Origin: Coriobacteriales bacterium
GTDB taxonomy: Bacteria > Actinomycetota > Coriobacteriia > Coriobacteriales > Atopobiaceae
DNA length: 34,650 nucleotides
Assembly: GCA_030529665.1 (NCBI GenBank)
Contig: JAUMWL010000010.1
Span: forward strand, 1 to 34,650
Reading direction: 5' to 3'
Positions 6,968-28,599 of the stretch are shown here, one piece after another. The stretch's first letter is position 1, and each line of letters opens with the position of its first letter. The translations under genes and the position numbers were made by a program. The notes under the pieces were generated by a model, which had not been told where the DNA came from, ran no database searches, and saw nothing but the letters and a program-made list of their open reading frames with translations.

Positions 6968-7837
6968 TCAGGACAAGGTGTCCGGCATGGCCTTCGGACG
7001 GCCGAAGATGGCGCTCGCCTCCGCGAACACGTCCTTCCCGGCGACCCTCACGTTGTCCACCGTGGCTATGCCGTCGCAGACGTAGCCCAGGTTGTCGAAG
7101 CTGCGGAAGGCCATGCTCGCGTGCTGTCGCCTCTTGAAGACGCGCGCCTTGCGCTCGCACAGCGAGTTGTCGGGCCCGACGCGCAGGTCGTGGAGGAACA
7201 GCAGGTGGGCGTCGCGGTAGTCGCGCATGCGCCTGAAGAGGTTGTAGCCGTCGCGGTAGTACTTGGCGGGAGGGTGCTCCGCGTACTCGCGCTCCGCCAG
7301 CGCGATGACCTCGTCGTAGCGCGCCTCCATGGCCGCCACCTCTTCGGGGTCGGGCGGGTCGCCCGGCGGAATCGAGTTGCGCCAGTGGACCATCGACCTC
7401 ACGTGCTCGAGCATCTGCCGGTTCCACGTGAGGCGCGGCTCGTTCTGGACGCTGCCGACGAGGTGGCGTATGGCGTGCTGCAGGCACTCCTGGTGCGAGG
7501 CGCCGTAGGAGTAGAAGGTCACGTCGTGGTCGTGGGAGACGCAGCCGACGTAGGTCTCCAGCGGCGTGCCCCTGACGCCCTCGTGTCCCTTGTGCTCGCG
7601 CGCGTACATCGCCGTGGCCTCCCCGTTGGCCAGTATCAGCACCTGGCGCTGCTCACCGCCCACGTTGGCGGAGGTGAAGTCGGCGTGCATCACCGGCGAG
7701 GACATCAGCGCCGCCAGCGCCGCCCGCCGCTCGGGGGCCGACTTATCGGAGAACTCCCTGGCCAGGCCGCACACCATCCCCACCGACATGTCGAGCGCGC
7801 CGCCGCTGGCCTCGCGCAGGAACGTCGAGGCCTTGGC
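6968..7837 (-). mobile_element. IS66 family transposase, N-terminally truncated fragment
   Basis: About 290 residues of the DDE catalytic region and C-terminus of an IS66-type transposase remain. They include HADFT (first Asp), AREHKGHEGV, GCVSHDHDVTFYSYG (second Asp), ECLQHAIRHL, YYRDGYNLFRRM, HLLFLHD and NSLCERKARVFKRRQ (the Glu), then FAEASAIFGRP. Full IS66 transposases are about 500 residues, so the N-terminal half (zinc finger and leucine-zipper-like parts) is gone. The frame runs upstream past the first Met to about 7837, where it abuts the truncated ATPase gene. I could not find terminal inverted repeats or the accessory orf1/orf2 genes, so this copy cannot move on its own. Confidence 0.88.
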
Positions 7838-8255
7838 GCCCGGTCAGGTTGGTCATGAGCTCTCCGGAGAGCAGATAGGAGTTCGACCCCGCGAGAAAGA
7901 CGGAGAAGGAGCCGTCCGCGCGGTACGCGTTCACGACCTCCTCGTAGCCCTCGACGCGCTGGACCTCGTCGACGAAGAGGTAGGTTACCTCACCCGCGTC
8001 CTCCGGGAGCCGCGACTCGATGGCGGCCTCCAGCTGGTCGTGCGTGCGGACGGACCTGAGGCCCCGCCTCTCGAGGTCGAGGTACACGATGCGCTCCCCG
8101 CCGATCCCGCGCTTGCGGAGCTCGTCGGCCACCGTCTCCATGAGGCACGACTTGCCGCAGCGCCGGATTCCCGTCACCACCTTGACGATTCCCGTGTCGT
8201 CGACGAACGGCCTGATCTTCTTGAGGTACCTCTCCCTACGATAATGCCTTGTCAT
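7838..8255 (-). pseudogene. AAA_14/DUF4143-type ATPase, 3' end replaced by IS66 sequence
   Basis: The first about 140 residues are a normal start of an ATP-binding protein of the AAA_14/DUF4143 family. Walker A is GIRRCGKS, Walker B is YLFVDEVQ, and the sensor region is FLAGSNSYLLSGEL followed by LTGR. In intact relatives LTGR leads into the rest of the AAA fold and then a DUF4143 domain of some 250 residues. Here homology stops at LTGR and the downstream DNA codes for IS66 transposase in another frame; the ATPase frame runs on as nonsense to 7743. The family is often found as mobile, chromosomally scattered genes of uncertain function. The start is the ATG at 8255. Upstream, 8256-8480 holds no gene that I can support. 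Confidence 0.8.
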
Positions 8256-8851: not shown

Positions 8852-11038
8852 ATGACAAAGGATTGCTCTGGAAGCCAATACGACACTATGATGCGGATCA
8901 TGGGCGCGATGATATATGAGAACGGACTCCGCATCAGTCACATGAAGTCTCTTGTGAAACAGGGGAATTCAACCAGTTTTCCCGTTCCCTCTATGCCAAC
9001 GACGGCGGCGCCCCAACAGCAAACTGCCCTTCCCGTTTCTCCGCCGACACGCATGATGCCCAAGCGTCATCCCACGCAACAGGCGCAACAGGCGCAAAAG
9101 GCGGCATCACGGCCGAAGTCCGGAGAAAAGCCTCGTACTTCCATATCCAAAGAGTTGGAGGCCTTGCTCGATTCCTCGCGTTATACGGCCTCTTCCATCT
9201 CGGGGGACGACCTGCACCACATCATTGGTCTCTACGGCAGTTCGGTGGAGGACATCTTCGAGCCTGGCGCCGGTCAGATGTGGATGCTCGAGGAAGCCGA
9301 GCATGTAAGCTCCGCCTTCTTCCTGCAGATCCTTACCAAGGCCGTTATCGATTTCGACCTGCCAGCCTTCCGCCAGCAAGCAGACACGGTGTGTCGACGC
9401 CACGAGAACCTGCGCTCGGCCTTCGTGTGCCACGGTGTCGAGCATCCTTGGCGAGTCGTGCTTAGGGACCGCCACCCCGAGATCAACTGCTTCGACCTCT
9501 CGGACCTGTCCATGGGTGAGTTCGACGAGCGAATTCAGAAGCTCATGGAGGCGGACCGCCAACGAGGCTTCGACTTGGAGAGGGACCCGCTCCTGCGCAT
9601 AAACATCTACAAGAGCTGCGAGAAGGACACCTATGCCATCATTATCTCGCAGCCTCACGTCAACTCAGACGGTACGAGCCTAGGCCTCCTCTTCAACGAC
9701 CTATTCATCGGCTATGTGCTCGACATGAATGGCATTGACAAGCAGATCGAGACGCAAAGCTACCAGGAGTACGCGCAGCATCTGAGCAATGTGGATACGA
9801 AGGGCGAGCTGGGGTTTTGGAAGACCTACCTTGCCGATACGGTGGCAGACCAGCTCCTGCCCGGCCAGCAGCCCTCGGAGCTCGACTACGACATTGCCGC
9901 CCTCCCCGTACCCTTTGGCGAGGAGGCCCAGCAAGCGCTGAAGGATGCGCAGCGTACCTATCGTGTCACGCAGTTCACCCTGCTGCAGGGCTTGTGGGGC
10001 ATCATGTGCGCACGGCTCAAGGGGCGCCACCAAATTGTGTTTGGCGCCATCACGTCGGGACGTGACGCACAGGTGGGGGACAGCATGCGGCTTGCGGGTG
10101 GGTTCGTGAACGCCCTCCCCGTTAAGGTTGCCTTTGCCGAGGGCGACTCGCTGGCCGACTTCTTGCGCCGGCTGCAGGGTGAGTTCGCGCGCTGCATGGC
10201 AAACTCGCACTGCTCTCCCGGCCAGATTCGCAAGGCCTTGGGGCGCGAGGAGCCGGTTTTTTCCCACATCCTCAACAACCACAACTTCGCCAGACCCAAG
10301 TCCAGTGGCGGCTTTTCCCAAGGCGGGTTTACGGGCATCAAGATGCTCGGGGGCGACGTGTACGACAACCTCTCGGCCGACCTATGCGTCTACTTTACCG
10401 ACGTGGAGGGAGGACCTGGTTGCCGCTACGTGTATAACGGCCGTGCCTTCTCAAGCGAGGTGATTCAGCTCCTGTCGCACTACTTTGCGGACATGCTGGC
10501 CGCGCTGCCCAATCTCGGCGACGATGCGACCATCGCCGCACTCCCCTCCTTCGACGCGTCGGGGATTCTCTCGGCCGAGAGCGCCCGCCATATCGAACAG
10601 GTCAGGATCGCCGAGGCCCTCAAGGCCCATCCCGTGTTCCAGGGAGCGGACGACGAGGAGCTCCTCGCGCTTGCCGAACGCAGCCGCCTCGCACACTATC
10701 CGGCAGATGCCATCATCGTGGCGCGCGACGAGCTTCCCAAGGAGATGCCGATACTCTTGAACGGGCGCGTGTACCACTACACGCAGGCCAGAGATGGATG
10801 GGAGAATCCGCTGCGTCTGCTCAAGGAAGGCGACATCCTCAGCTACTCCGTGCTCTTCGAGGGGCAGCGCACGAGCGACCTGATCGTCAACAACAGAAAC
10901 GAGGCGACGGTGATCTGGCTGCCGAAGACCGAGCTGCTCGACTTCCTGGCAGCTCATCCCGCGGGCATGATCGAGATAGCGCGGCGTCTCCACTCGGACA
11001 AGCGAGTCTACGCCAGGCTCTGGACCAACGCGGAGTAG
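8852..11038 (+). CDS. NRPS condensation domain fused to a cyclic-nucleotide-binding-like domain
   Basis: 728 residues. Residues 8-37 form a Met-rich helix (SQYDTMMRIM...) that resembles a helix in the double carrier protein at 19760. Residues 40-110 are a Pro/Gln/Lys linker. Residues about 115-575 are a condensation domain: VEDIFEPGAGQMWML (C1), HENLRSAF (C2) and PHVNSDG (C3) with the catalytic His269 and the structural Asp273. The first His of HHxxxDG is Pro, which is common outside canonical elongation domains. Later parts include FGAITSGRD, GGFVNALPVKV and FSHILNNHN. Residues about 585-728 match the cNMP-binding fold of Crp (HPVFQGADDEELLALAERS, ILLNGRVYHY, EGDIL), but the phosphate-binding cassette lacks the usual GE and RxA residues, so it may not bind a nucleotide. 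The start is set by GAGGGGGG 12 bases before ATG 8852. The gene is first in the cluster, and the next gene starts four bases after its stop. Confidence 0.88.
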   Translation: MTKDCSGSQYDTMMRIMGAMIYENGLRISHMKSLVKQGNSTSFPVPSMPTTAAPQQQTALPVSPPTRMMPKRHPTQQAQQAQKAASRPKSGEKPRTSISKELEALLDSSRYTASSISGDDLHHIIGLYGSSVEDIFEPGAGQMWMLEEAEHVSSAFFLQILTKAVIDFDLPAFRQQADTVCRRHENLRSAFVCHGVEHPWRVVLRDRHPEINCFDLSDLSMGEFDERIQKLMEADRQRGFDLERDPLLRINIYKSCEKDTYAIIISQPHVNSDGTSLGLLFNDLFIGYVLDMNGIDKQIETQSYQEYAQHLSNVDTKGELGFWKTYLADTVADQLLPGQQPSELDYDIAALPVPFGEEAQQALKDAQRTYRVTQFTLLQGLWGIMCARLKGRHQIVFGAITSGRDAQVGDSMRLAGGFVNALPVKVAFAEGDSLADFLRRLQGEFARCMANSHCSPGQIRKALGREEPVFSHILNNHNFARPKSSGGFSQGGFTGIKMLGGDVYDNLSADLCVYFTDVEGGPGCRYVYNGRAFSSEVIQLLSHYFADMLAALPNLGDDATIAALPSFDASGILSAESARHIEQVRIAEALKAHPVFQGADDEELLALAERSRLAHYPADAIIVARDELPKEMPILLNGRVYHYTQARDGWENPLRLLKEGDILSYSVLFEGQRTSDLIVNNRNEATVIWLPKTELLDFLAAHPAGMIEIARRLHSDKRVYARLWTNAE

Positions 11039-11042
11039 GGCC

Positions 11043-13016
11043 ATGGATACGCTGCACATAGTCTATGCGGCCGACCATGCGTACTTCCTGTACTGCGCCA
11101 TATCGATGTACTCGCTGATGGACCATCTGCCACAGGGGCAGCGCGTGCATGTCCATCTGCTTTGCGACGAGAGCTTCTGCGCACAGGACCAACGCATGCT
11201 CGACCTTCTAACAGCACGCTTCCCCAACCTACGCGTCTTTTGCCGATGGGTGGCCGAGGAGGCCTTTGACGAGCGTGACTTCACCGATTCCCTGTGGTCA
11301 AAGGCGACGTGCTATCGACTGGTGCTGCCCGAGCTGCTCCACGACGTGGAAAGTTGCCTCTATATCGATGCCGACACGCTCGTGGTGGGCGACCTCCTCC
11401 CGCTCTGGGAGACGGATATGGAGGGCTTCTATCTTGCGGGGGTCCTCGACGACATCGCGCCGGTGCGCGCGCAGACGGTGGGTGACCATGTCCCCGGCAT
11501 CCAAACCTATGTGAATGCTGGCGTGCTCTTCATGAACCTCGCGCTCATGCGCGCGGACGGCGTGCAGGATCGTTTGCTCGCACGTGTCGCGGACTACTTG
11601 GTGGTTGACCAGGACCTCCTCAACGTCGAGTGCTATGGGCATATCCGCCTGCTTCCGCCGGGCTACAACTGCATCCCGGGCGTGCGGGTCGACGATCCCA
11701 AGATCTTGCACTTCCTGATGCGCGACTACCTACGTCCTTGGAAGAACCGCCGCGCTCGGGGTGCCGAGCAGTGGTGGAGCTACGCGAAGGAGTTCGCGGG
11801 CCTCTGCGATTTGGAGGGGCTGCGAGCTCAGGCAAATTGGTACGAGCGGGGATCCGCCTCGTACCTGTATCGGCGCTGTGCGGACTATGCACAGGTGCAT
11901 GTGGTTGGTAGCGGCCCGGAAGCCATGAGGGTCCATCGCGCCTTGCGTTTGGGCAGGTGCAAGGGCTTACATGGGCCGCTGCCCGAGGACAAACGAATCG
12001 ACTACGCGCCCGATGCCCTGGTTATCTACGCTTCGAACAGACGCAACGTTAGGGCACTCGAGGCCTTTCTCGAGCACGAGGATGGCACACGCCAAGTGCT
12101 TCGCTACGAACGCTGGCCCGTTTCGTACTACAACCTCCTGCCCAACGAGGTGAGCCACGAGGTCGAGGGGGAGCTCCTCATGTGGGAGTACGGCGTGGAC
12201 AGCCGAAGCGTGACTGTGCCTTCGGCCCTGCTGGAAATATGCGCAGTTCGCCATCCCGACAAGGAGGCCTTGGTCGAGTGGGTGGATGGCGCCCGTGCGT
12301 CGTGCACCTTCCAAGAGCTCAATGTGTGCGCGAATCGCATGGCCAACTGGCTGCGCGGGCGTGGCATTGCTCGTGGCACACTGGTGCGGCTGCCAGAAGG
12401 TGCCCGTCCGACCCAGATCCTCGCTGCGGCAATTGGCATCCTCAAGGCAGGCTGCGTCGTGGCGCAGGCGGGCGATGCCCCCGTGACGGCAGACCCGTTG
12501 GTGCTCGCGGATGATCGCAACTCCTCCAAATCGCCCGCTTGCGAGCCCGTTCCCTACGAGGCCGCACTGCGTGAAGACGGTAGGACCTGGACGGGACGCG
12601 ACCTATGCAAGGAGGCGGAGCGGTTGCGCAGGCGCTGTGGCTGGCATGGGGGCGACAAGCCGCTTGTGGATGTGTCGGTTGTTTGGGGCGGACTGGTCCA
12701 ACTGCTGGCAGCGTGCGCACGGGGATGTACCACCGTGCTTGTGGCCGGGAACGATCCACGCATGCTCCTCGATGTAGTCGACCGCGAGCAGGCCAGCATC
12801 ATGTGCATGGGCAAGAGGCTATTCTTGCAGACTGTGGATCAGCTTGAGAGCGAACCTTCGCAGCGGCTTGCTACCTGCAGGTTTGCGATCGTGGGCGACG
12901 AGGTGGATGCCGACGACCCGGCACGCCTGCGATGGCAGCAGCTAGTTGCGCATATCCCGCTCGACGGACAGGGCTTTGCTGGGGAATTCTTCTATGACAG
13001 TCGGTGGTACACATGA
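11043..13016 (+). CDS. GT8 glycosyltransferase fused to a degenerate adenylation domain
   Basis: 657 residues. Residues 1 to about 260 are a GT8-family, retaining, GT-A fold glycosyltransferase: HIVYAADHAYFLYCAISMYSL at the start, the metal-binding DAD at 109-111 in LYIDADTLVVGDL, YVNAGVLFMNL and VDQDLLNV. Residues about 285-370 look like a small Rossmann-type segment (VHVVGSGPEAMRVHRAL). From about 390 an adenylation-like domain follows: HPDKEALVEW, TFQELNVCANRMANWLRGRGI (A1), AAAIGILKAGCVV (A2), a VDVSVVWGGLVQLLAACARGCTTVLV stretch equivalent to A4, and FAIVGDE. It lacks the A3 TSGSTG loop, the A5 YGxTE, the A7 TGD and the A10 lysine, and stops before the C-terminal subdomain, so it cannot be an active adenylating enzyme. 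It may be a structural partner. The gene follows the first gene by four bases and overlaps the region before the GT2 gene. Confidence 0.87.
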   Translation: MDTLHIVYAADHAYFLYCAISMYSLMDHLPQGQRVHVHLLCDESFCAQDQRMLDLLTARFPNLRVFCRWVAEEAFDERDFTDSLWSKATCYRLVLPELLHDVESCLYIDADTLVVGDLLPLWETDMEGFYLAGVLDDIAPVRAQTVGDHVPGIQTYVNAGVLFMNLALMRADGVQDRLLARVADYLVVDQDLLNVECYGHIRLLPPGYNCIPGVRVDDPKILHFLMRDYLRPWKNRRARGAEQWWSYAKEFAGLCDLEGLRAQANWYERGSASYLYRRCADYAQVHVVGSGPEAMRVHRALRLGRCKGLHGPLPEDKRIDYAPDALVIYASNRRNVRALEAFLEHEDGTRQVLRYERWPVSYYNLLPNEVSHEVEGELLMWEYGVDSRSVTVPSALLEICAVRHPDKEALVEWVDGARASCTFQELNVCANRMANWLRGRGIARGTLVRLPEGARPTQILAAAIGILKAGCVVAQAGDAPVTADPLVLADDRNSSKSPACEPVPYEAALREDGRTWTGRDLCKEAERLRRRCGWHGGDKPLVDVSVVWGGLVQLLAACARGCTTVLVAGNDPRMLLDVVDREQASIMCMGKRLFLQTVDQLESEPSQRLATCRFAIVGDEVDADDPARLRWQQLVAHIPLDGQGFAGEFFYDSRWYT

Positions 13017-13033
13017 TGAGAGGGGATGCGCGC

Positions 13034-13942
13034 ATGGAGACAGTACAAAAACCGCTCGTCACGGTGTTCGTGCCCGTGCATAATGGAGAGACCTACGTCG
13101 AGGGGTGTTTGCACGCCATCCAGGCGCAGACGTGGCAGAGACTCGAGATTATCGTGGTGGACGACGGTTCGACCGATGCCACTGTCGAGGCGGCAAATCG
13201 TTGTGCCCGACAAGACTCGAGGATCAGCGTGCTGCGCCTTCCCGAGAACGTACAGCTCTTTCATGCGCGTCTTGCCGGTATGGAGGCTGCGCATGGTGAC
13301 TATCTCCTCTCGGTAGATGTGGACGACCAGATCTCCGACGACTATGTGGAGTGCCTGCTCGACGCGGCGCTGCGGACAGACGCCGACCTCGTTATCTGCG
13401 ACCACCTGCTCATGCGCACCCCCGACGGCAGCGTTCGGAAGAGCGCCCTGAACAGCACCCCCGCAGACCGGGAGTACCTCGTGCCCAAAGAGCACGTCGA
13501 TTACGAGTACTATCGCCACAACGTCGGCAACGCCCCCATAGATCAGAGCTACGTCGTGTTCTGGTCCAAGCTGTATCGCCGGGACCTCGTCGAGCGAGCT
13601 TTGCCCTGGCTTCGCGAGGAGTGCATGCCGATCATCTACAACGAGGACGTGCTCTACGCGGGGGTGTTCCTGCATCTTGCGAGCAGTACGGCATTCACGC
13701 GCCAGGGCGCCTACGTATACGGAACCAACGACGCGTCGGCGATGCGATCGGACTTTATGGAGCGTCTGTCCAAGATAGCGGCCGACCAGCTGGAGGTGCT
13801 CTACTTCCTCCAACGCTTTCTCATGCGATCGGGTGCGGACCCCAAGCTGATGGACCTCTTCCAGGCGTGGAAGGCGGGCAATTGGGGATTCCTGGAGACG
13901 CGTTATGCCTACTGGCGTATGCAGGCGACGCGTAACTCATAA
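13034..13942 (+). CDS. GT2 family glycosyltransferase
   Basis: 302 residues. This is an inverting GT-A glycosyltransferase with the classical N-terminal layout: VTVFVPVHNGETYVEGCL, EIIVVDDGSTDAT (nucleotide-binding Asp), and SVDVDDQISDDY in place of the DxDD metal site. A region around IIYNEDVLY contains the ED that usually positions the acceptor/base. It would transfer a sugar from a nucleotide-sugar in the cytoplasm; donor and acceptor cannot be read from sequence. No membrane helices are visible, so it is cytosolic or peripheral. I prefer ATG 13034, which has GAGAGGGG eight bases upstream; ATG 13013 overlaps the previous stop as ATGA and cannot be excluded. Its place between two NRPS-like genes suggests it decorates the cluster product. 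Confidence 0.9.
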   Translation: METVQKPLVTVFVPVHNGETYVEGCLHAIQAQTWQRLEIIVVDDGSTDATVEAANRCARQDSRISVLRLPENVQLFHARLAGMEAAHGDYLLSVDVDDQISDDYVECLLDAALRTDADLVICDHLLMRTPDGSVRKSALNSTPADREYLVPKEHVDYEYYRHNVGNAPIDQSYVVFWSKLYRRDLVERALPWLREECMPIIYNEDVLYAGVFLHLASSTAFTRQGAYVYGTNDASAMRSDFMERLSKIAADQLEVLYFLQRFLMRSGADPKLMDLFQAWKAGNWGFLETRYAYWRMQATRNS

Positions 13943-13970
13943 GGTTCTTAAACAGGCGAGGAGGCACGCA

Positions 13971-16900
13971 ATGATCGATCTCGATGGGCATGTGAGGGTA
14001 GTGCAGCGTTGCGTGGCGGGTCCCGTCTACTGCGACGCAGACCACCAGGCGATGACCGTCTATCTGGCGGTGCAGCTGCCAACGCGCGTTAACGTGCCGG
14101 CACTCGACAGGGCGCTGGCTGACCTGCAAGAGCGCTATGGATGCATCCGGCAGCTAGTGGTGGAGGTGGGAGGTGCCTACTACTATGCCCAGACGGACGA
14201 GCCACTGCACGTGGAGGTGGCAGACGATGTAGACGATGCCGCAGCAGGCCATGGCCAAGCGTGGGCGGAGCGACTGAGTGAGCCTGCCGCCAGCTCAGAT
14301 GCGGGGCTGCCCGGCGCCATGCGAGGCCTTCGCGTGCTCGCAGGCAAAAGAACCGTCGTCGTTGCCATGAACCATGCGCTCATGGATGGTGGCGCGCTCC
14401 TTACGCTCACCACGGAGCTGCTCGAGGGCTACGCGGGGTACCGCGCTGGCACAGGACGGGCCGCGTCGCCTGACGTGCCACCTACGCTTTCCGAGACGAC
14501 ATTCGAGGCGCTCGAGCTGCCGGTTGGCTCGGACTGGATACCCGTGGCGGGATATGCGCACGACGCGTTTGTGCCGCCTGCCGACATGGGTAGGCTTGAC
14601 GAGCTCGTAGAGCTGACGGCACCCACGGCCTCCGTGCTCTCCCTGTGCAAGCGGTTGGGCAGCTCGCCAGCAGCGTTTTTTACGGCCATGATAGCCCACG
14701 CAATCCGCGAGAGCCATCCGCGCGATCCGCAGCGCCATCTGGTTGCCAGCATAGCCATCGACTACCGCACGCTGCTCGGGTGCGAAAACACGATACGAAA
14801 CGCCAGCTGGACGGCGGCCTTCGACCTAGACGACTCCGCGTGCAACGGGATGGGCTGGCAGGAGCAGGCCAAATGGCTGAGGTCAGCGATCGGCACGCGA
14901 CGTGACGTCCGTTACGCCAAGGGATGGATTAAGACCGAGCGGGCAATCAACGTGATGTCGTCGCGGTTGCAAAAGAAGCGTCTCCACGACACGAGGGAGA
15001 CGTCTGCCCAGCAATCCTTCATGCTCACCTATCTGCGACTTCCTGATTCGTCGGCATTCGATGGGGCAAAGGTCTGCTTTTCCGGGTTCTCCCTTCCCTC
15101 CGATATGACGCTCGTGGAGCATGCCGGCAGCTTCCACCTGTTCTTCATCCCCCTTCAGAGGCAGGACGCCTTCCTTGCCGCCTTGGACGAGGCCGCCGCC
15201 GAGGTCGGCCTCGCGTTTGCGAGCGATAGTCTGCGCAAACCCTCCATCCACTCTGAGGTATCGGCACTGCAGGCTGGCGGGCCATGCGTGTTCTTTGCAT
15301 GCGATCCCACATCCCAGGATGTGGAGGCACTTGCCGCCGAGATGCGCTCGTACGTCGAACGCGGATATCGTGTGCGCGCCTACACGAGCTCCCGCCTCGC
15401 GTCTCTCGTCGAGGAAGCCGGCGCCGCTTGCATCTCCTGCGACCCCATATTCTCAGACTCGGATGCCAGTGGCGCCACGTGGGCAGATGAGCTGGAGGAC
15501 ATGCTGCGCCAGGACGTGCGGGTGTTCGAACCTGAGTGTATGGTGGCATCCCAAAGCTGTGCATGGGCCGCCCCCCTGGCAGACAAGCTTGGCCTGCGCC
15601 TCGAGAACCACCCCAGAGCACGCCTCTGGTCGGAGCTCTGGGATACCGACTCCTACGACGAATCGCTCACCTTGCAGGACCTCGCCTGGGCAACCTTCGA
15701 CGCACCTGGCACGGCCATCGTGTGCGGAGGGCGCCGTATGTCGTATGCGGACTTTCACCGCACCACCACGCGCATAGCATGTGCGCTCATCGAGCGCGGC
15801 CTCAAGGCCACAGATGTGGTCGCCATCCACATGAGGCGCGACGAGCGACTTCTTTGTGCCATGTTCGGCATCATCAAGGCGGGTGCCGCCTATCTTGTGC
15901 TAAACACGGACTGGCCCCAGCAGCGCCTGCGCTATGTGGTCGAAAACTCCGACGCACGCTACGTTATAGCCAATGAGGTGCCACAAGACTCCCGAGTGTC
16001 GGCCGAGACGATCTCTTACCAATGGCTGGTGGAAAAGCCCGTCCCCGGCGAGGCGGGGCCACAGGGAGTCCTGCGCGCGCGAATGCTGCGCCCCCATTCC
16101 TCGGACGTGGCAGCGCTGTATTACACCTCTGGCTCCACGGGCAAGCCCAAGGGAGTCGTGCTAAGCCATCGCAATATGGTGGATTCCACACTGCCCTTGC
16201 GTCGTAACGCTTGTATCCGCGAGGGTTCCATTCGCTGTCGGAGCATTCTGGACGTGGTCAACGCAGGCTTCATGGCGTCGGTTCTTACCTATGGGCCGTC
16301 CCTCTATACGGGAGGGACGCACGTGTTCGTGCAGAGCGAGGAACTCGAGCAAATCGCCCCGGTGGCACAGATCATGAAGCAGGAAGAGGTGGACTTCGTC
16401 CTCATGACGCCTTCGGTCATGACAACCCTTCTTACAGACGAGGGCTTCTCGCAAAGCCTTTCGCAGGTGCGCGAGATCACCCTCTGCGGCGAGTCCTTCT
16501 CCCAACAATTGGCCGACACGCTCACGGACCTAACCAGGGAGGGCACGATTATCAACAACCTCTACGGCACGACGGAGGCTGCCGTGGGGCTGGCCTGCGT
16601 GGACGTCCGTGGCAGAGAGGTGACGATGGGCGTGCCCTTCGCACATACGGAGGTGTTTGCCGAGAACGAGCTGGGCGAGCGCCTTCCACATGGCCAGGTT
16701 GGGCAGCTGTGTGTAAAGGGCCCACGCGTGGCCTTGGGGTATCACAAGCTGCCCGAGCTGTCGGCGGAGAAGTTCTTTGTGGACGCTGACGGCATCCGTG
16801 TGTACCGAACGGGCGACAACGGCTTTGTAAACCAGCGTGGGGAAATAGAGTTCCTCGGTCGCGACGACCGAATGGTCAAGCTGGGTGGGGTGCGATTCGA

Positions 16901-18665
16901 GCTGCCGGAGGTGGAGTACCACCTGTTGCAGCTGCCCTACATCCGCGAGGCAGCCGTCAAGGTGTGCGAGGTGGACGGTCGCGACCAGCTCTGCGCGGTT
17001 TATGTGGGCGACGAGAGCGATACCGTGCGCGCCGGCCGACGGATTCGCGCAGACCTTGCCAGCGTCGTTCCCCAAGCCATGATACCGAGCGTCTATGTGC
17101 ACCTGCGAGCGATGCCCGTTACGGAGCGGGGCAAGATTGACTACAGTTGCTTGCCCATACCAACAAGCGTGCAAGTTCAAGACAACACGTTGCCCGCGAA
17201 CGAGACCGAGCAGACGATCTGCGAGGCCTTCGCGGAGGTCTTTGGCGTGGCATCCGTAGGGGCGGAGGCGTCTTTCTTCGAGCTGGGGGGCAACTCGCTC
17301 AGGGGTATAACCCTACTGGCGGCGCTTCTTAAGCGCGGGCAGTCCGTGAGCATGAAGGAGCTGCTGGACCACCCGACGCCACGAACGTTGGCGAGTCTGT
17401 TACATGCGCGGCAGAAAACAACCGAAGAGGATGCCCAGGCGACCGATGCTGCGCAGGAGGCTATCGAGCTGCCCGACGAGCTGCGCGAGCTCATGGCATC
17501 CGAGGCGGTCGAGGCCATACTTCCGGCCAGCAACGTCACGTCGGCATACTTGTTTATGGGACAGGCCGGTGTCACCGATCGCGCAAACCGCATTCGCGTA
17601 CGCCTCACGCTCGAGGGAGCCCTCGAAGAAGCGGCGTTCAGACGTCGCGTAGATGCGCTGGTGCGCAATCACCCTTCGCTGCGAAGTGACTTCGTGCGCG
17701 ATAACCAGGGGAGGTATTGGCAAGTCGTGCGCTCGTACCAAGACGTGCCCACCTACCACAAGGACCTCCGTAGGCTCTCCGATGCGGCGCATGCGCGGCT
17801 GCTGAGTGGTTTTTGGCAAGTCATGGACGAGAGCGGCCAGCCTTTTGAGGCGGCATGCTTCCCTGTATCGGCAGGTCGCAGCGTTGTTCTCTTTGAGGTC
17901 GAACACACGCATGCCGACGGCATGTCGCTCCTTATCATGGCAAACGAGCTGGCAAACGGCGCATCTCCAAACCTTCCCGTGGATGACTTCATAGACTACC
18001 GCAGGCGTCACGTCCAGGCAGGCCAGCATATCCCTCTGTCCGTTCAACAATACCTGACTCCCAAACGTGCTCCGCTCAAGTCGCCTGAGGCGATGCTCGG
18101 GCAGGAAGTCTCGCGCACGGAAGAGGTCGTCGAACTCTCGCGGTTCCAGACGGACGAGCTCGTGCGGCGTTGCGGACGCGAAGGGGTCACGCCCTTTGTC
18201 CTCGTCCAGCTCAGTTATGGCCGGGCACTCCTGAGCCTCTTGAACGAGGACGAGGTCTGGGTGCTGCACACGGATGGGGGGCGCTCGTCCTCGCGCGAGG
18301 GGGAAAGCCGCATTGTGGGCAACCTGTTTTGCGGCGTGCCCCTCCTCATTCGTGCTACCACCACTGCGGCGCAGCTACAGGAAGACATTCTCAACATCGC
18401 AGCCCAGGCGGGAATCTCGGACTCCGACCTGCTGCGCAATCCCACCTGGATGGGCATCTACGAGGGGGTTGTTTCTGAGGACTTTGGCGAGCGCGAAGGC
18501 GGCCTCCTGTCTTTCGAGATACTTCACGACGCCAATCGCGGGGGCAACCAGATGACCATGGCCGACGGTCGGCTGCGTATCACTTTGTGCCATGCGGACG
18601 ACCCCAAGCGCAACCCGTGGTTCCGGCGGCTGGCGGAGCTCCTGCGTGCAGAGCTGCTCGGGTAA
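13971..18665 (+). CDS. NRPS-like protein: C-like / GT1-like / A / PCP / C
   Basis: 1564 residues. Domain order: residues 1-425 condensation/acyltransferase-like (NHALMDGG, His135 and Asp139); 440-555 a Rossmann segment like the N-terminal half of MGT/GT1 glycosyltransferases (VFFACDPTSQD, YVERGYRVRAYTSSRLASLVEEAGA) without the sugar-nucleotide half. Residues about 560-1065 are an adenylation domain with intact motifs: SYADFHRTTTRIACAL (A1), IKAGAAYLV (A2), YTSGSTGKPKG (A3, Tyr718), LYGTTEA (A5, Tyr865), YRTGD (A7, 945-949), GRDDRMVKLGGVRFELPEVE (A8) and GKIDY with catalytic Lys1055 (A10). A carrier domain follows with FELGGNSL, phosphopantetheine on Ser1109. Residues about 1165-1564 form a terminal C domain, EHTHADG with His1312. 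There is no thioesterase, so the last C domain probably transfers the carrier-bound acyl group to an amine, hydroxyl or sugar. The start ATG 13971 follows GAGGAGG. A 4'-phosphopantetheinyl transferase is needed from elsewhere. Confidence 0.93.
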   Translation: MIDLDGHVRVVQRCVAGPVYCDADHQAMTVYLAVQLPTRVNVPALDRALADLQERYGCIRQLVVEVGGAYYYAQTDEPLHVEVADDVDDAAAGHGQAWAERLSEPAASSDAGLPGAMRGLRVLAGKRTVVVAMNHALMDGGALLTLTTELLEGYAGYRAGTGRAASPDVPPTLSETTFEALELPVGSDWIPVAGYAHDAFVPPADMGRLDELVELTAPTASVLSLCKRLGSSPAAFFTAMIAHAIRESHPRDPQRHLVASIAIDYRTLLGCENTIRNASWTAAFDLDDSACNGMGWQEQAKWLRSAIGTRRDVRYAKGWIKTERAINVMSSRLQKKRLHDTRETSAQQSFMLTYLRLPDSSAFDGAKVCFSGFSLPSDMTLVEHAGSFHLFFIPLQRQDAFLAALDEAAAEVGLAFASDSLRKPSIHSEVSALQAGGPCVFFACDPTSQDVEALAAEMRSYVERGYRVRAYTSSRLASLVEEAGAACISCDPIFSDSDASGATWADELEDMLRQDVRVFEPECMVASQSCAWAAPLADKLGLRLENHPRARLWSELWDTDSYDESLTLQDLAWATFDAPGTAIVCGGRRMSYADFHRTTTRIACALIERGLKATDVVAIHMRRDERLLCAMFGIIKAGAAYLVLNTDWPQQRLRYVVENSDARYVIANEVPQDSRVSAETISYQWLVEKPVPGEAGPQGVLRARMLRPHSSDVAALYYTSGSTGKPKGVVLSHRNMVDSTLPLRRNACIREGSIRCRSILDVVNAGFMASVLTYGPSLYTGGTHVFVQSEELEQIAPVAQIMKQEEVDFVLMTPSVMTTLLTDEGFSQSLSQVREITLCGESFSQQLADTLTDLTREGTIINNLYGTTEAAVGLACVDVRGREVTMGVPFAHTEVFAENELGERLPHGQVGQLCVKGPRVALGYHKLPELSAEKFFVDADGIRVYRTGDNGFVNQRGEIEFLGRDDRMVKLGGVRFELPEVEYHLLQLPYIREAAVKVCEVDGRDQLCAVYVGDESDTVRAGRRIRADLASVVPQAMIPSVYVHLRAMPVTERGKIDYSCLPIPTSVQVQDNTLPANETEQTICEAFAEVFGVASVGAEASFFELGGNSLRGITLLAALLKRGQSVSMKELLDHPTPRTLASLLHARQKTTEEDAQATDAAQEAIELPDELRELMASEAVEAILPASNVTSAYLFMGQAGVTDRANRIRVRLTLEGALEEAAFRRRVDALVRNHPSLRSDFVRDNQGRYWQVVRSYQDVPTYHKDLRRLSDAAHARLLSGFWQVMDESGQPFEAACFPVSAGRSVVLFEVEHTHADGMSLLIMANELANGASPNLPVDDFIDYRRRHVQAGQHIPLSVQQYLTPKRAPLKSPEAMLGQEVSRTEEVVELSRFQTDELVRRCGREGVTPFVLVQLSYGRALLSLLNEDEVWVLHTDGGRSSSREGESRIVGNLFCGVPLLIRATTTAAQLQEDILNIAAQAGISDSDLLRNPTWMGIYEGVVSEDFGEREGGLLSFEILHDANRGGNQMTMADGRLRITLCHADDPKRNPWFRRLAELLRAELLG

Positions 18666-18748
18666 CATGCGATGAGGGTCTCTGTTGGCAGGCTCTCGAC
18701 TGGTGGAGCGGGTGACCCACGGGCCTATCGAACGAAGGGAGGTACAAG

Positions 18749-19621
18749 GTGGGTTTTGGGTATCGTCAAATCTCGACGGAAGGCCTCAAGCCCCTCGGGA
18801 GGGGTAAGAGCGGGACGGTGTACTGGGTAGACGACGACAAGGTCGTCAAGATATACCACGATGGGCGTAGCGAGCTCGAGGTGTTGAGGGAGTATCTAAC
18901 AGCTCGACTCATGGAAGAGGCAAACGTTCGTGCCATGCGGATCTTTGAGGTCGTAAAAAGCGGCGACGCCTTTGGTTTGGTGTGCGAGAGACTGGAGGGA
19001 GTCTCCTTCAGGCAGCTCCTCTTCAGCGAAACGGCACGGATTGACAAGATCGCAGCGCTCTATGCCCACTTTATGCGGGAGGGGCACCTTGCGGTCCTCG
19101 GCCAGGACGAAGGCGTGTCTGTGCGGCCCACATTCGAGAGATGGACAAACAGCATCCGTGTCTTTTCCCGCGAGGACCGTGACGCCCTGCAGAGGTCGCT
19201 CTCCCACATACCAAACAGGCTGTGTCTGCTCCATATGGACCCGACCCCCGAGAATCTGCTGCTTCTTGCCGATGGAAGCCTCGCATGGATTGACTTGGAG
19301 TCGTGTGGAACAGGACATCCGGCCTTCTCGCTACAGGCACTCTACTTTCCCGACGACGTGGATACGATACCCGGCGTCTCGCTGGACGAGGCGCGTGTGC
19401 TCAGACGTTTTTGGCACTCTTTTGCGAGGAACTATTTCGTGGGTTTCGACCAGTCTCGCATGGGATCCATCATAAGGGGCATCAAAGTGCTCGCAGTCCT
19501 TCGCTCCCTTGGTTTCTTACAGGACAAGGTGGGTGACACGCCCCTCTTCCGTGCGCAAGCGTCGGCGCTCACGAAGGGGCTTTTCTGCGACATAGCGCAA
19601 GGTCTCGACTATGACTGGTGA
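18749..19621 (+). CDS. APH/choline-kinase-like small-molecule kinase
   Basis: 290 residues with GTG start 18749 behind AGGGAGGT. The fold is that of the aminoglycoside phosphotransferase / protein-kinase-like superfamily: glycine-rich loop GRGKSGTVY, the ATP-anchoring lysine in KVVKIYHDG, the Brenner catalytic loop HMDPTPENLL (His162, Asp164, Asn169) and the metal aspartate in WIDLES (Asp182). It therefore should phosphorylate a hydroxyl on a small molecule or sugar. It resembles the group of APH-like proteins with unknown substrates, not a recognised resistance enzyme. The gene lies 83 bases after the large NRPS-like gene and before the carrier gene. Possible jobs are tailoring of the product, making an activated sugar for the two glycosyltransferases, or protecting the producer by phosphorylating the product; nothing in sequence decides between them. 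Confidence 0.85.
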   Translation: MGFGYRQISTEGLKPLGRGKSGTVYWVDDDKVVKIYHDGRSELEVLREYLTARLMEEANVRAMRIFEVVKSGDAFGLVCERLEGVSFRQLLFSETARIDKIAALYAHFMREGHLAVLGQDEGVSVRPTFERWTNSIRVFSREDRDALQRSLSHIPNRLCLLHMDPTPENLLLLADGSLAWIDLESCGTGHPAFSLQALYFPDDVDTIPGVSLDEARVLRRFWHSFARNYFVGFDQSRMGSIIRGIKVLAVLRSLGFLQDKVGDTPLFRAQASALTKGLFCDIAQGLDYDW

Positions 19622-19722
19622 TGATTTCCGATGGTGAAAGGTTGTGATTTCTGGGTGGCTGCGGATACTGCGGGTATATGGTAGAAACGGATGTAGTGTT
19701 TAGCGGGTTCTTGTTATAGTTA

Positions 19723-19730
19723 TTTAATTG
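19723..19730 (+). promoter_or_regulatory. Possible internal promoter of the carrier-protein gene
   Basis: TGTTATAGT (19722-19730, with TG at 19722-19723) matches an extended -10 like the one before the first cluster gene. It lies in the AT-rich 138-base gap between the kinase and carrier genes, 30 bases before the ATG and its GGGAGGA site. No good -35 is seen. A separate promoter would let the carrier be made in excess over the large enzymes. Confidence 0.35.
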
Positions 19731-19759
19731 TTGGGATTCGATGTATAGGGAGGAACTGT

Positions 19760-20797
19760 ATGGCAAAGTACACCGAGGAGTTGCGTCAGGCATGGAAAGA
19801 AGTCTTCGAAGTGGAGGAGGTCGCCGACGACGCCGACTTCTTTGCAGAGGGCGGTGACTCCATCATGGCGGTGCAGCTGTCGTCATGGCTGCAGCAGAAG
19901 GGTATTAAGCTGGATTTAGGCAAGATCTTCTACACGCCCGTATTCTCCGACATGGCGGAGACGCTTGAGGAGACGGAGCCCATGTACGTGCCCGACGAGC
20001 TGATGACCAAGGAGCTCATCAACGAGAAGCTGAGCGATATCATGCAGAGCGACAGAGGGGCTCAGAGCGCATCGGAGGCCAAGGCGCCGGCGACCGTCTT
20101 GCCCGGGCAGGCGCCCAGCCAGGCAGACGCCCAGGTCTGCGACCCGAAGGATATGCCCGCCGGGAAAGGCCAGGCGGGCGCCCAGGTCTGCGACCCCGCG
20201 CCTATGCCTGCTCGCAACTCTGACTACGATGTGATGATCTCCATGTTCCAGACGATGCTTGCCCAGCAGCAGGTCATGCTTCAAATGATGCAGGTCATGC
20301 TCGCCCAGCGGAGCCAGGCCCCTCAGTTTGTGGCGCCCATGCAGGGAGGTGGTATGCCCTTTCGGGCTCCCTTTCGTTCCCAGGCACCTGTAGCGGCCCC
20401 TCGATACCCCGCCCAGGTGGCACCTTCGACCGGCGGACCGCATACCCTGGACAGTGTTCCACCCGAGGCACGTGCCCAACTCGCGCAACAAATGCAAAGG
20501 TACCAGTCGCATCCGGTGGACAAACCCATCGACAAGCCCAACGTCATCGGTTTGAAGCCCGCCAAAGTCACCAAGGCCGAGCACAGCGCCGAGGAGGTCC
20601 TAGACCATGTGCTCTCTGGTCTCCTCGAGGGTAGCTACAGCCGCACGGAGGATCTCTTTGAGCAGGGACTTACTTCATTTGACGTTGTCAAGATGATTAC
20701 CCGTTGCGGTGAGCACGGCTATGCCCTGAGCATGCAGGACGTGTACATGCACTCGACCTTCAATGAGCTGCTCGAGCATATGAAGCCCGGCAAGTAG
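19760..20797 (+). CDS. Stand-alone double carrier protein (PCP-linker-PCP)
   Basis: 345 residues. The N-terminal carrier domain (1-75) has DADFFAEGGDSIMAVQL with the phosphopantetheine Ser34. The C-terminal carrier domain (about 270-345) has EDLFEQGLTSFDVVKMI with Ser306 in a looser motif. The 190-residue link contains a 17-residue tandem repeat (QAxAQVCDPxxMPA, each with a Cys), a Met/Gln-rich helix at 154-186 (SDYDVMISMFQTML...) and a Pro/Ala/Gln-rich tail. The helix resembles residues 8-37 of the first cluster protein, so it may dock the two. The link could let the carriers swing between the three C domains and the A domain. Having neither an A nor a C domain of its own, both carriers must be loaded in trans. 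The start ATG follows GGGAGGAA. A terminator follows 40 bases after the stop, closing the cluster. Confidence 0.9.
   Translation: MAKYTEELRQAWKEVFEVEEVADDADFFAEGGDSIMAVQLSSWLQQKGIKLDLGKIFYTPVFSDMAETLEETEPMYVPDELMTKELINEKLSDIMQSDRGAQSASEAKAPATVLPGQAPSQADAQVCDPKDMPAGKGQAGAQVCDPAPMPARNSDYDVMISMFQTMLAQQQVMLQMMQVMLAQRSQAPQFVAPMQGGGMPFRAPFRSQAPVAAPRYPAQVAPSTGGPHTLDSVPPEARAQLAQQMQRYQSHPVDKPIDKPNVIGLKPAKVTKAEHSAEEVLDHVLSGLLEGSYSRTEDLFEQGLTSFDVVKMITRCGEHGYALSMQDVYMHSTFNELLEHMKPGK
20120..20221 (+). repeat. Two tandem 51-base (17-residue) repeats in the carrier linker
   Basis: Two in-frame units start at 20120 and 20171. They share 17 identical bases (20129-20145 and 20180-20196), coding AQVCDP, and similar flanks ending in MPA. 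Each unit supplies one cysteine. It is a recent-looking coding duplication within the flexible link. Confidence 0.85.
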
Positions 20798-20917: not shown

Positions 20918-22735
20918 CTATGCGTCCATGCTGAACTGACTGTTGTAGAGCTCGGCGTAGAGGCCAGCGCACTCCATGAGCTCGTCGTGGGTGCCGGTTT
21001 CCCGAATGTCGCCGTCCTGCATGTAAATGATGAGGTCGGCATTCTTGATCGTAGAGAGGCGATGCGCGATGACAAAGCTCGTCCGTCCGCGGGTCACCTC
21101 GTCCATGGCCCGCTGGATCTGCTCCTCGGTGCGGGTGTCCACCGAGGAAGTGGCTTCGTCCAGGATGAGCATCGGCGAATCGGCCACCATCGCGCGGGCG
21201 ATGGTGAGGAGCTGCTTCTGTCCGGCGGAGATGCTTACGCTGTCGTTGAGCTGCGTATCGAGGCCCCTGGGCAGCGTGTCAACGAAGTGCGCCAACCCGC
21301 AGCGCGCACAGACGTCGAGGAGGTCGTCGTCGGAAACGCTTTCTTTGCCGTAGGTCAGATTTTCACGCACGGTACCCTCAAAAAGCCATGTGTCCTGAAG
21401 TACCATCCCAAAGACCTCATGCGCGTCCTTTCGTGTGACGTCGGCGAGATTCGTCCCGTCTATGGCAATCGTACCACCATCCAGCTCGTAAAAACGCATG
21501 AGCAGGTTGACCAGTGTGGTCTTGCCGGCACCGGTAGGTCCCACGATGGCAACCTTCTGCCCAGCCTCAACACGCGCGGAGAAGTCGTGGATGATGGTCC
21601 TCTCTGGCACGTAGCCAAACCGTATATGGTCAAAGGACACTGCACCACGTACGTCGGACAGGCGCGTGGTTTTGTTGCTTTCGTCTTCAAGCTCCTCCTC
21701 CGCCAGGAAAGCCTTGACTCGCGCACTTGCGGCGGCAGCGGCCTGGATGCTCGCGAAGCCCTGCCCAATGGAGCTGAGCGGGATAGAGAACAGGCGCACG
21801 TATATGATGAAGGCAACGACAACCGAGAAGTCGATGGACCCGCCAAAGGCAAGGGCTGCGCCGACGATGCACACGGCCACATAGCCAAGGTTGCCGACAA
21901 AGGTCATGATGGGCATCAGCAGCCTCGAGAGGAACTCCGCTTGGAAGGTGCGTTGCCGAAGGCGCTCGTTGGCGTCCCGAAACGCTCGAAGCTCGCTCTC
22001 CTCTGCGTTGTAGGCGCGCACGATCATCTGCCCTGCGTACAGCTCATCTATATGTCCGTTCAACTCTGCAAGGCTCTTCTGTCGTGCCACAAAGTACTTC
22101 TGAGACACACCCATGATTCGGCCCATCGCAATGAAGCCCACCAGCGTCGTGGCGATGGCGGTAAGGGACATGCGCCACTCCGTTATCGTCATCATCACGA
22201 TGCAGCCAATGACGATGGTGGATGATGACACGAAGACGCCCACGCTCGTGTTGAGCGACTGGCTGATGGTGTCCACGTCGTTAGTCACATGCGAGAGCGT
22301 GTCGCCCTGGCTGTGGTTGTCGAAGTACCTAAGAGGCATGCGGTTGATCTTGCGCGTGATCTCGCTGCGCATCTGCTTGCCCACGCTGCAGGACACATGC
22401 GACATGATGAGCGACTGCAGGTAGTCGAGCGCCATGCTTGCCACATAGACGGCGATGAGCGTCATGCCAATGCCGTTGACCTTGGCGAGGCTGATGTCTA
22501 TGCCTGTTGATGAGACGCCCTTCGTGATGGTTTCGGCCAAACGCGCAATCAAGGACGGTCCCGCGACGGAGAGCAACGCGCTGACTGCAGAAAACGCGAA
22601 GGCCACAACGATGAGGCCCACATACTGATGGCAGTAACCCACGAGATAGGAAAGTGATGCGCCGAGGTCCTGCTTGTTGCGAGTGCTGCCCCGACGGGCT
22701 TTCGAAACCATCTGCTTGCGTGTCTTCGGACTCAT
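20918..22735 (-). CDS. ABC exporter half-transporter (second subunit)
   Basis: 605 residues: an N-terminal six-helix exporter membrane domain followed by a nucleotide-binding domain, the type that pumps lipids, peptides or drugs outward. Walker A is GPTGAGKTT (Lys405), Walker B with LILDEATSSVD keeps the catalytic Glu, and the switch His is in IAHRLSTI. The signature reads SISAGQKQ, slightly off the LSGGQ consensus. It overlaps the upstream half-transporter by four bases (ATGA), so the two are translated together and should form a heterodimer. The paired degeneracies (Asp in the partner's Walker B, ISAGQ here) give one consensus and one weakened ATP site, a known design of heterodimeric exporters. 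It converges on the NRPS-like cluster, making that product a possible cargo. Confidence 0.93.
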   Translation of the reverse strand: MSPKTRKQMVSKARRGSTRNKQDLGASLSYLVGYCHQYVGLIVVAFAFSAVSALLSVAGPSLIARLAETITKGVSSTGIDISLAKVNGIGMTLIAVYVASMALDYLQSLIMSHVSCSVGKQMRSEITRKINRMPLRYFDNHSQGDTLSHVTNDVDTISQSLNTSVGVFVSSSTIVIGCIVMMTITEWRMSLTAIATTLVGFIAMGRIMGVSQKYFVARQKSLAELNGHIDELYAGQMIVRAYNAEESELRAFRDANERLRQRTFQAEFLSRLLMPIMTFVGNLGYVAVCIVGAALAFGGSIDFSVVVAFIIYVRLFSIPLSSIGQGFASIQAAAAASARVKAFLAEEELEDESNKTTRLSDVRGAVSFDHIRFGYVPERTIIHDFSARVEAGQKVAIVGPTGAGKTTLVNLLMRFYELDGGTIAIDGTNLADVTRKDAHEVFGMVLQDTWLFEGTVRENLTYGKESVSDDDLLDVCARCGLAHFVDTLPRGLDTQLNDSVSISAGQKQLLTIARAMVADSPMLILDEATSSVDTRTEEQIQRAMDEVTRGRTSFVIAHRLSTIKNADLIIYMQDGDIRETGTHDELMECAGLYAELYNSQFSMDA

Positions 22736-24498
22736 CGTAGCTCCTCCTCGCTTAGCTGGCTATAGGCGAGCTCTTGGTAGGCCTCACAGCTCGCCATGAG
22801 CTCCTCGTGCGTTCCCTGTCCCGCGACGCGACCATCCTCGAGCACCACGATGAGGTCGGCGTTCATGATGGTGCCGATGCGGTGCGCTACGATGAGGCAG
22901 GTCGCATCCGCCATTTCGTCCTTGAGTGCCTGCCTGAGCGCGCGGTCGGTCTTGTAGTCAAGCGCGGAGAAGCTGTCGTCAAAGATGTATATTTCGGGAT
23001 GGCGGGCCACGGCGCGGGCGATGGAGAGACGCTGCCGCTGTCCACCAGAAAGGTTGGTGCCCATCTGAGCCACCGCCGCCTCGATGCCCTTCTCCTGAGC
23101 ATCCACGAAGTCGCTGCCCTGGGCAATTGCGATAGCGCGTTTCACGGTGGCGTCGTCCGATTCGTTGTCGCCAAAATCGACGTTCGAGCGGATGTCACCG
23201 CTAAAGAGCACGGAACGTTGCGAGACATAGCCAATTCGTTTGGCCAGCTCGCTCTTGCGGTACTCCCGCACGTCATGTCCGTCCACCAGCACCCGTCCTG
23301 CCGTCACGTCATAGAAGCGCGGCACGAGGTTGACTACCGTCGTTTTGCCGCTGCCGGTGGCTCCGATAAAGGCCACGGTGTCGCCCTTCCTGGCGGCAAA
23401 GGACACGTCCGATATGGCGTTGCCCCTGCCATCCGGATAGCTAAAGCAAACATGGTCGAAGACCACCGTGCCCACCTCATCGGTCTTGCCGACACCTGGC
23501 CCATCCTCGACGCTCACCTGCGCATCGAGCACCTCGTTGATGCGTTGCGCACTGACGAGCGATCGAGGGACGTTCATGAAGAGCGCGGAGAGCAGGATGA
23601 ACGCCGTGATAATCTGCAGGCCGTAGGACATGAACACCACCATGTTGCCAAAGAGACTCGCGTATTCCTCCAGCGACGCGGTGTTGATGACGTAGGCCCC
23701 GGTCCAGTAGATGGCGAGCGACATGCCGTTCATCACGAGTGACATGAAAGGGTTGATGAAGGCCGTTGCACGGTTGGTAAAGAGGCTCGTGCCGGTGAAC
23801 TCCTCGTTGACCTCTTCGAACTTGCCTTGCTGGAAGTCCTCGGCGTTGTAGGCGCGTATAACCCGGATGCCGCTCAGGTTCTCGCGCACCAGTTGGTTGA
23901 GGTGGTCGGTATGTGACTGCAGCAGCTTGAACTTGGGCGTCACAAGTCGAACGATGCTTATGACGACGGTGACGAGGGCCACCACCGCGATGCCCATGGC
24001 TATGGTCCATTCCTGCCTGCTGGCCGAAATCTTGGCAATCGCCCATACGGCCGTGATGGGCGCTTTGATCATCATCTGCAGACCCACGGTCATGAGGTTT
24101 TGGATCTGCTGCACGTCGTTGGTCGAGCGTGTGATGAGCGAGGCGGTGCTAAACCTGTTGATCTCTCCCAGCGAGAAGCCCTGTACCTTGGTATAGACGG
24201 CTTCGCGAATACGCGTGGAGAAGTCGACCCCGATGTGTACGATAAAGTAGCTGGATATGATGGAGCATATGAGGCTCCCAATGGCGCACAGGAGCATGAA
24301 CCCGCCATCGACCCAGATGTCGGACAGGCCACCGGCAGCCCCTGCGTGTGCCGTCGACCTGCCTTGCGCAATCTGTGTGACGGAATTCATGTATTCGGGC
24401 ATCTTGAGATCGAGCCACACCTGAGCGACGATGAACGTAACTGCGCATGCGACATAGAGCCATTCGCGCTTTCTTAGGTACTTGAGCAATCTTAGCAA
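22732..24498 (-). CDS. ABC exporter half-transporter (first subunit)
   Basis: 588 residues with an N-terminal transmembrane exporter domain (six hydrophobic segments) and a C-terminal ATPase domain. Walker A is GATGSGKTT (Lys385), the signature is LSGGQRQRLSIARA, Walker B is YIFDDSFSALD, where the catalytic glutamate is replaced by Asp-Ser, and the switch is VAHRIGTI. The IFDDSFSALD version is typical of the degenerate site in heterodimeric multidrug/peptide exporters. Translation starts at TTG 24498 behind GGAGGGAG. It lies 41 bases downstream of a 46-residue small ORF on the same strand and shares its likely promoter. The operon is clearly minus-strand and convergent with the biosynthetic genes. 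Generic multidrug export is the alternative reading. Confidence 0.93.
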   Translation of the reverse strand: MLRLLKYLRKREWLYVACAVTFIVAQVWLDLKMPEYMNSVTQIAQGRSTAHAGAAGGLSDIWVDGGFMLLCAIGSLICSIISSYFIVHIGVDFSTRIREAVYTKVQGFSLGEINRFSTASLITRSTNDVQQIQNLMTVGLQMMIKAPITAVWAIAKISASRQEWTIAMGIAVVALVTVVISIVRLVTPKFKLLQSHTDHLNQLVRENLSGIRVIRAYNAEDFQQGKFEEVNEEFTGTSLFTNRATAFINPFMSLVMNGMSLAIYWTGAYVINTASLEEYASLFGNMVVFMSYGLQIITAFILLSALFMNVPRSLVSAQRINEVLDAQVSVEDGPGVGKTDEVGTVVFDHVCFSYPDGRGNAISDVSFAARKGDTVAFIGATGSGKTTVVNLVPRFYDVTAGRVLVDGHDVREYRKSELAKRIGYVSQRSVLFSGDIRSNVDFGDNESDDATVKRAIAIAQGSDFVDAQEKGIEAAVAQMGTNLSGGQRQRLSIARAVARHPEIYIFDDSFSALDYKTDRALRQALKDEMADATCLIVAHRIGTIMNADLIVVLEDGRVAGQGTHEELMASCEAYQELAYSQLSEEELR

Positions 24499-24748: not shown

Positions 24749-24888
24749 TTCTTAGCCATAATGATGATGCATATTGCGCCTGCGAGGGAAATCCACCGCA
24801 GGTCACTGTTCACACCCTAGCGGTAGTACCATGCCTTGCCCGCGTCGTATAATCAGCTAACGTGGCAAGCATCACGAGAGGAAATCGT

Positions 24889-25686: not shown

Positions 25687-25694
25687 GACCAAAC

Positions 25695-26078: not shown

Positions 26079-26095
26079 CGGTTTGCACACGCGCG

Positions 26096-26965: not shown

Positions 26966-26977
26966 GGTGGCTGTCCC

Positions 26978-27928: not shown

Positions 27929-28002
27929 GGTTTTCTCCAATCTTGGTTGCCTGGAACTCATTCTGAAGGTCGACGCCGCGCTCGCAACATACAGAGTTTA
28001 TG

Positions 28003-28584: not shown

Positions 28585-28599
28585 CACGGCGCCGTGCAT

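Follow-up and report, generated by a model that had tools for sequence, protein, structure and literature searches.

Free-standing condensation enzymes of the SgcC5 type form esters, and some nonribosomal peptide synthetases (NRPSs) release their product without a thioesterase (TE) or reductase (R) domain. The cluster described here, at positions 8852 to 20797 of a window of 34,650 nucleotides (the whole stretch of Atopobiaceae DNA that was analyzed), resembles NRPSs of the LgrA, TycA, and SrfA-C type in the core motifs of its adenylation (A) domain, the serines of its carrier (T) domains, and the HxxxDG motifs of its condensation (C) domains, and its best PDB matches are the linear gramicidin, tyrocidine, and surfactin synthetases. 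However, it differs from these enzymes in having one A domain for three T domains, no Asp235, and no thioesterase, as well as a probable glycosyltransferase half fused in and a C domain fused to a cNMP-like domain. By analogy with the SgcC5 type, a stand-alone HxxxDG C domain and a carrier-bound acid could esterify a sugar-bearing acceptor; the stand-alone protein of this cluster, P0001, differs by its added cNMP-like domain and disordered N terminus, and ester formation here is putative.

The glycosyltransferase parts can also be compared with described enzymes. In a low-confidence model, a segment of P0004 resembles the N-terminal acceptor-binding domain of GT1 glycosyltransferases (YojK, OleD, and UGT109A1), but it lacks the donor-binding domain and is inserted between a C and an A domain, and no catalysis would be expected from it. 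P0002 shares with GT8 galactosyltransferases such as LgtC a GT8 domain with a DxD motif, from which it differs by its fusion to a truncated A-like domain. The DltA/carrier pathway is similar in that one adenylating domain charges carriers for transfer to a glycan, and the A domain of P0004 scores 228 bits against the DltA model, below the model cut-off. In contrast to that pathway, transfer in the cluster would proceed by C domains instead of DltB/D, and the A pocket is without the conserved Asp. The cluster is an unusual, intact, and mobile NRPS-like/glycosyltransferase set that resembles no described pathway found.

Domain content of the cluster

The cluster consists of six long plus-strand open reading frames at operon spacing. 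Their products, identified chiefly by Pfam and NCBIfam profile scans, are in gene order a C protein with a cNMP-like domain, a GT8 enzyme fused to a truncated A-like part, a GT2 enzyme, a C–(GT1-like half)–A–T–C protein, an APH-type kinase, and a T–linker–T protein. P0001 (8852 to 11038) has a disordered N terminus, followed by a C domain at 9275 to 10507 (C3; PF00668, E 9e-55, exceeding the Pfam cut-off) and a cNMP-binding-like domain at about 10694 to 10954 (PF00027, E 6.5e-7). P0002 (11043 to 13016) combines the GT8 domain (11055 to 11714; PF01501, E 2e-29; DxD at 11367) with a truncated A-like N-subdomain (about 12225 to 13013; PF00501, E 2e-13). P0003 (13004 to 13942) is a GT2 glycosyltransferase (PF00535, E 1e-32), whose start is probably an ATG at 13013 to 13034. 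P0004 (13971 to 18665) comprises an N-terminal C domain (C1), the GT1-like N-terminal half (about 15276 to 15614), the A domain (about 15711 to 17147), a T domain (17211 to 17402), and a C-terminal C domain (C2, 17589 to 18662), which scanned alone exceeds the Pfam cut-off (PF00668, E 5e-17). P0004 likely starts at 13971, where the gene of the relative described below begins, and not at the frame's first ATG (13905).

P0005 (18749 to 19621) is an APH/TIGR02172-like small-molecule kinase (PF01636, E 1e-13; TIGR02172, E 6e-18) with intact HxDxxxxN (HMDPTPEN) and D-L-E (IDLE) motifs; a search for PDB relatives found none. P0006 (19760 to 20797) carries two T domains, T1 at 19775 to 19963 and T2 at about 20585 to 20788 (PF00550, E 3e-20, two stretches), separated by a repeat-bearing linker. 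The linker contains 17-amino-acid repeats of the form xGQVCDPxxMPxxx, about two versus five depending on the species (window positions about 20060 to 20230; 8803 to 9963 of L049, a contig of the second species). On the opposite strand after P0006, an ABC half-transporter pair spans 20918 to 24498, in which P0007 (20918 to 22735) is an ABC exporter half of the MsbA/MDR type and P0008 (22732 to 24498) is its partner (PF00664 and PF00005 in both).

The HxxxDG motif is present in all three C-type domains (HVNSDG at 9656, HALMDG at 14373, and HTHADG at 17904), and the carrier serines are present in all three T domains (17286, 19850, and 20666, in the motifs GGNSL, GGDSI, and GLTSF). The source genome has PPTase genes. 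No thioesterase or reductase release domain was found in the scanned cluster proteins. The domain scans and motifs therefore bear out the six-gene inventory of the original prediction, with its three HxxxDG motifs, one complete A domain, three T domains, GT8, GT2, and kinase, together with the absence of a thioesterase. The cNMP-like domain that ends P0001 and the A-like N-subdomain that ends the GT8 protein had been missing from it.

Elsewhere in the window, a Fic/DOC family protein, whose end gives a weak HTH match, is encoded at 5577 to 6824. The region from 24853 to 34510, the first part of which is colinear in genome G195, holds three radical SAM proteins of about 290 amino acids (26096 to 26965, minus strand; 32700 to 33590 and 33626 to 34510, plus strand), two TetR regulators (28042 to 28584, plus strand; 32000 to 32569, minus strand), an FMN reductase, and an esterase.

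The adenylation domain and its predicted substrate

The sole complete A domain of the cluster runs in P0004 from TSGSTGKPKG at 16125 to GKIDY at 17130. All core motifs were found (TSGSTGKPKG, YGTTE, YRTGD, GRDDRMVKLGG, and GKIDY), and the domain matches TIGR01733 with an E value of 3e-86, in support of the earlier claim of one acid-activating domain. Its pocket code was read from an alignment with 49 other A domains of the class and a GrsA fragment that served as the pocket reference. The code is MALLTCLVGK (M235, A236, L239, L278, T299, C301, L322, V330, and G331, with K517 from GKIDY), and we know of no matching code. At the codon for GrsA position 235 (16272 to 16274, plus strand), Met stands instead of Asp, and the A-domain copy of the second species likewise has Met. 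In the same alignment, whose sequences are not all independent, 48 of the 49 other A domains have Asp at this position and one has Val. The latter, at locus L052 of the second-species genome, is the only other sampled A domain without Asp235 and may activate a keto or hydroxy acid.

Asp235 contacts the substrate's alpha-amino group; keto-acid A domains typically have an aliphatic residue in its place (PMC10949194, PMC11355689). Position 235 provides no strict rule, because at least one keto-acid A domain retains Asp235 (PMC10949194). Since Asp235 is replaced by Met in P0004, the activated acid is probably not an alpha-amino acid, and a hydroxy, keto, aryl, or fatty acid is the more likely substrate. 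The aminoacyl product originally proposed is accordingly doubtful, as the residue that binds the alpha-amino group is missing.

Divergent and half domains

The N-terminal C domain of P0004 (C1) scores 21 bits against a Pfam cut-off of 30.6 and had no PDB relative. Among the loci compared, its match is a stand-alone HxxxDG protein from the genus (21% identity, E 6.5e-10). C1 may be inactive or act on acyl-CoA.

The segment between C1 and the A domain had been described as a truncated GT1-like part. Sequence searches gave no sequence-family match for it, and a low-confidence AF2 model built from two sequences (pLDDT 49) was compared with known structures. Foldseek ranks GT1 N-terminal domains first for this pLDDT 49 model (E 1e-4), with UGT109A1, macrolide glycosyltransferases, and YojK as the top structural matches, and VIA-align gives it a Z score of 10.1 for GT1 N-terminal domains versus 8 to 8.6 for unrelated folds. 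The GT1 C-terminal donor-binding domain is absent, and the A domain follows directly. The segment is therefore a probable GT1 acceptor-binding half without a donor domain, as far as the model goes.

The A-like half of P0002, which was identified by sequence alone, lacks both a P-loop motif and a C-terminal subdomain. The cNMP-like domain of P0001 has the fold at a score above the Pfam cut-off; compared with GlxR-type regulators, the G-E-L of the phosphate-binding cassette is not kept although R-T is, and ligand binding is therefore uncertain. Both domains are most likely non-catalytic docking or scaffold domains. Among the papers searched, none dealt with a C-cNMP fusion.

Conservation and selection in a second species

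A second species of RUG440, as a rumen genus of Atopobiaceae is called (PMC13431278), also has the full set of eight genes, with protein identities of about 78 to 92%. This genome (G400) and that of the window (G000) were assigned to one genus, and the G400 copy spans two contigs, L049 and L036. A GTDB contig scan found a relative only in a RUG440 MAG (ONMP01000049.1, L036), on a contig identical to one of G400. The window's P0001 and P0002 are 89% and 92% identical to their counterparts in the second species, and P0004 is 92% identical to the copy on L036. The gene order in G400 is a cyclic permutation, with the P0006-ABC-ABC block preceding P0001 to P0005 instead of following them. Because the set stays complete while its order changes, this arrangement argues that all eight genes work together. 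It also strengthens the proposed coupling of the ABC pair, which moves with the T-T gene as one block and stays with the other five genes in the second species.

Selection was estimated from the two copies. The dN/dS ratio was 0.14 to 0.23 per gene for seven genes (P0003, split between contigs, was excluded), and by part it was 0.19 for P0001, 0.15 for GT8, and 0.09 for the A domain; the A-like and GT1-like halves gave 0.29 and 0.34. The A-like half ends at the identical point in both species, and the GT1-like half is uninterrupted in both. The seven genes and both half domains are under purifying selection, and none is decaying.

Distribution and horizontal transfer

Of the 16 genomes of the genus, two have the cluster, and it was seen in none of the other genomes sampled, absences being provisional in these drafts; the nearer relatives of G000, also draft genomes, are among those provisionally without it. 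Segments of the cluster are 82 to 92% identical between G000 and G400, and those at 16119 to 18218 reach 96 to 100%. By comparison, rpoB identity to G000 is 75.9% for G400, 87.5% for G334, 82% for G370, and 82% for G195, and a HAD gene of the window is 75% identical between G000 and the relative. The flank of the relative's cluster is about 73% identical to its G000 counterpart and mostly 93 to 95% identical to the sister genome G401. Because cluster identity exceeds that of rpoB and of the flank, and nearer relatives lack the cluster, these comparisons indicate that it is exchanged horizontally between species, probably with recombination after transfer.

A misbinned contig in the relative was considered and rejected. 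About 9 kb of flank adjoins P0004-P0005 on that contig, with matched stretches 89 to 95% identical to G401 and about 73% to G000, and since this flank is like that of the sister genome, the contig belongs to the distant lineage. The right flank can be followed in G195 and G370 as far as window position 24631, but a search for an empty insertion site gave no genome with the left and right flanks joined. Directly upstream of the cluster lie an IS66 transposase remnant and a truncated AAA_14 ATPase (6968 to 8255), and a DDE transposase lies near the P0006-ABC-ABC block in L049.

Wider searches gave few matches. In 398 genomes of the class, P0004 matched nothing but A-T regions, at about 33% identity or below, and P0006 gave only the two cluster copies and one weak single-T match in 397 genomes of the order. 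In the sampled GT8 family, full-length P0002 matches occurred only in the two cluster genomes. Viral contigs yielded no cluster relatives, and plasmids yielded generic C domains only, none covering 80%. Neither outcome that would have told against the original prediction was seen: no characterized cluster matched, and the six genes stay together as a conserved set, though in only those two genomes of the genus.

Proposed pathway and alternatives

Our tentative reading is that the cluster is an intact, horizontally exchanged specialized-metabolite cluster that assembles an acylated, glycosylated small molecule in rumen Atopobiaceae (RUG440). The P0004 A domain would activate one non-alpha-amino carboxylic acid (hydroxy, keto, aryl, or short/branched), which would be loaded onto the P0004 T domain and/or the T-T protein P0006. 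C2 and C3 (P0001) would then pass the acid on to an acceptor, at its hydroxyl or amino groups, much as free-standing C domains do when they form esters. GT8 and GT2 would assemble this acceptor, a glycoside, which the GT1 acceptor-binding half within P0004 might help to position; a sugar-bearing acceptor, as first suggested, holds up as a plausible target. The kinase P0005 would phosphorylate an intermediate or the product, for self-protection or tailoring, and the ABC heterodimer P0007/P0008 would export the product. The joining of acyl and sugar parts is a predicted step, drawn from the domain content, and GT8 and GT2 could simply glycosylate a finished peptide. Release without a thioesterase agrees with the scans; use of the one acid twice and product release by the terminal C domain, both taken from the original prediction, stay putative.

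The same genome has free-standing AMP-ligase and C genes elsewhere, one pair of them in a glycosyltransferase/sugar-transferase locus, which makes acyl transfer beside glycan genes plausible in the genus, though this is no proof for the cluster itself. That pair (5861 to 9451 of L070) is an AMP-ligase gene and a stand-alone C gene whose neighbors encode a bacterial sugar transferase and glycosyltransferase-like proteins, which suggests that the genome also specifies an acylated exopolysaccharide. Another locus (5109 to 9813 of L069) has genes for a free-standing AMP-ligase, a C domain, and an esterase, with a small carrier-protein-like frame nearby. More speculatively, the cluster would carry out carrier-protein-based acylation of a growing glycan, its glycosyltransferases and NRPS parts being held together by swapped half-domains (the A half on GT8, the GT1 half in the NRPS, and the cNMP fold on the free C protein), and its product would belong to an undescribed class of acyl-glycosides spread as a mobile unit among rumen Atopobiaceae; we regard this fuller version as conceivable and rather unlikely.

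An ordinary small NRPS is a possible, if somewhat doubtful, account of the same genes. One amino or hydroxy acid would be iterated on the three T domains to a short (depsi)peptide, later glycosylated by GT8/GT2, and the kinase would serve self-resistance or tailoring. The A and T domains are clearly of NRPS type, and three C, one A, and three T domains fit an iterated single monomer; however, the missing Asp235 speaks against amino acids, a thioesterase or reductase is missing, C1 departs from standard peptide-forming C domains, and the GT1 half and the A-like half would be left needing another explanation. A role in decorating a surface glycan, in which the carriers hand an activated acid to a polysaccharide or glycolipid of the envelope in a loose parallel to teichoic acid D-alanylation and the ABC pair flips the glycolipid, appears improbable. 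Loci for surface glycans often contain GT8 and GT2 enzymes, MsbA-type lipid exporters give the best scores for the ABC pair, and the AMP-ligase and C pair beside a sugar transferase points the same way, yet the block has no flippase/polymerase, priming transferase, or sugar-nucleotide genes, and MsbA-type scores do not assign a substrate. Moreover, a permuted, mobile block in 2 of 16 species has the pattern of an accessory metabolite and not of an envelope component.

The two catalytically incomplete domains and the IS66 remnant just upstream could also be taken as signs of a decaying hybrid, in which the half A and half GT1 domains are fusion debris and the whole set has degenerated to the point of making no defined product. 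This is very improbable and largely refuted, since the dN/dS values of the seven measured genes and the half domains speak against decay; the reading frames are intact in two species, and the end point of the A-like half and the continuity of the GT1-like half are shared by both.

Significance

Rumen and gut Coriobacteriia are, to our knowledge, hardly known as makers of natural products, and among the papers searched none treated Coriobacteriia together with NRPS and biosynthetic gene clusters. An intact cluster moving between species suggests a selected, transferable product, and the reciprocal half-domain fusions offer a way to test whether catalytic domains are put to new use as docking parts. 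The product may act in the cow rumen, where RUG440 is transcriptionally active (PMC13431278).
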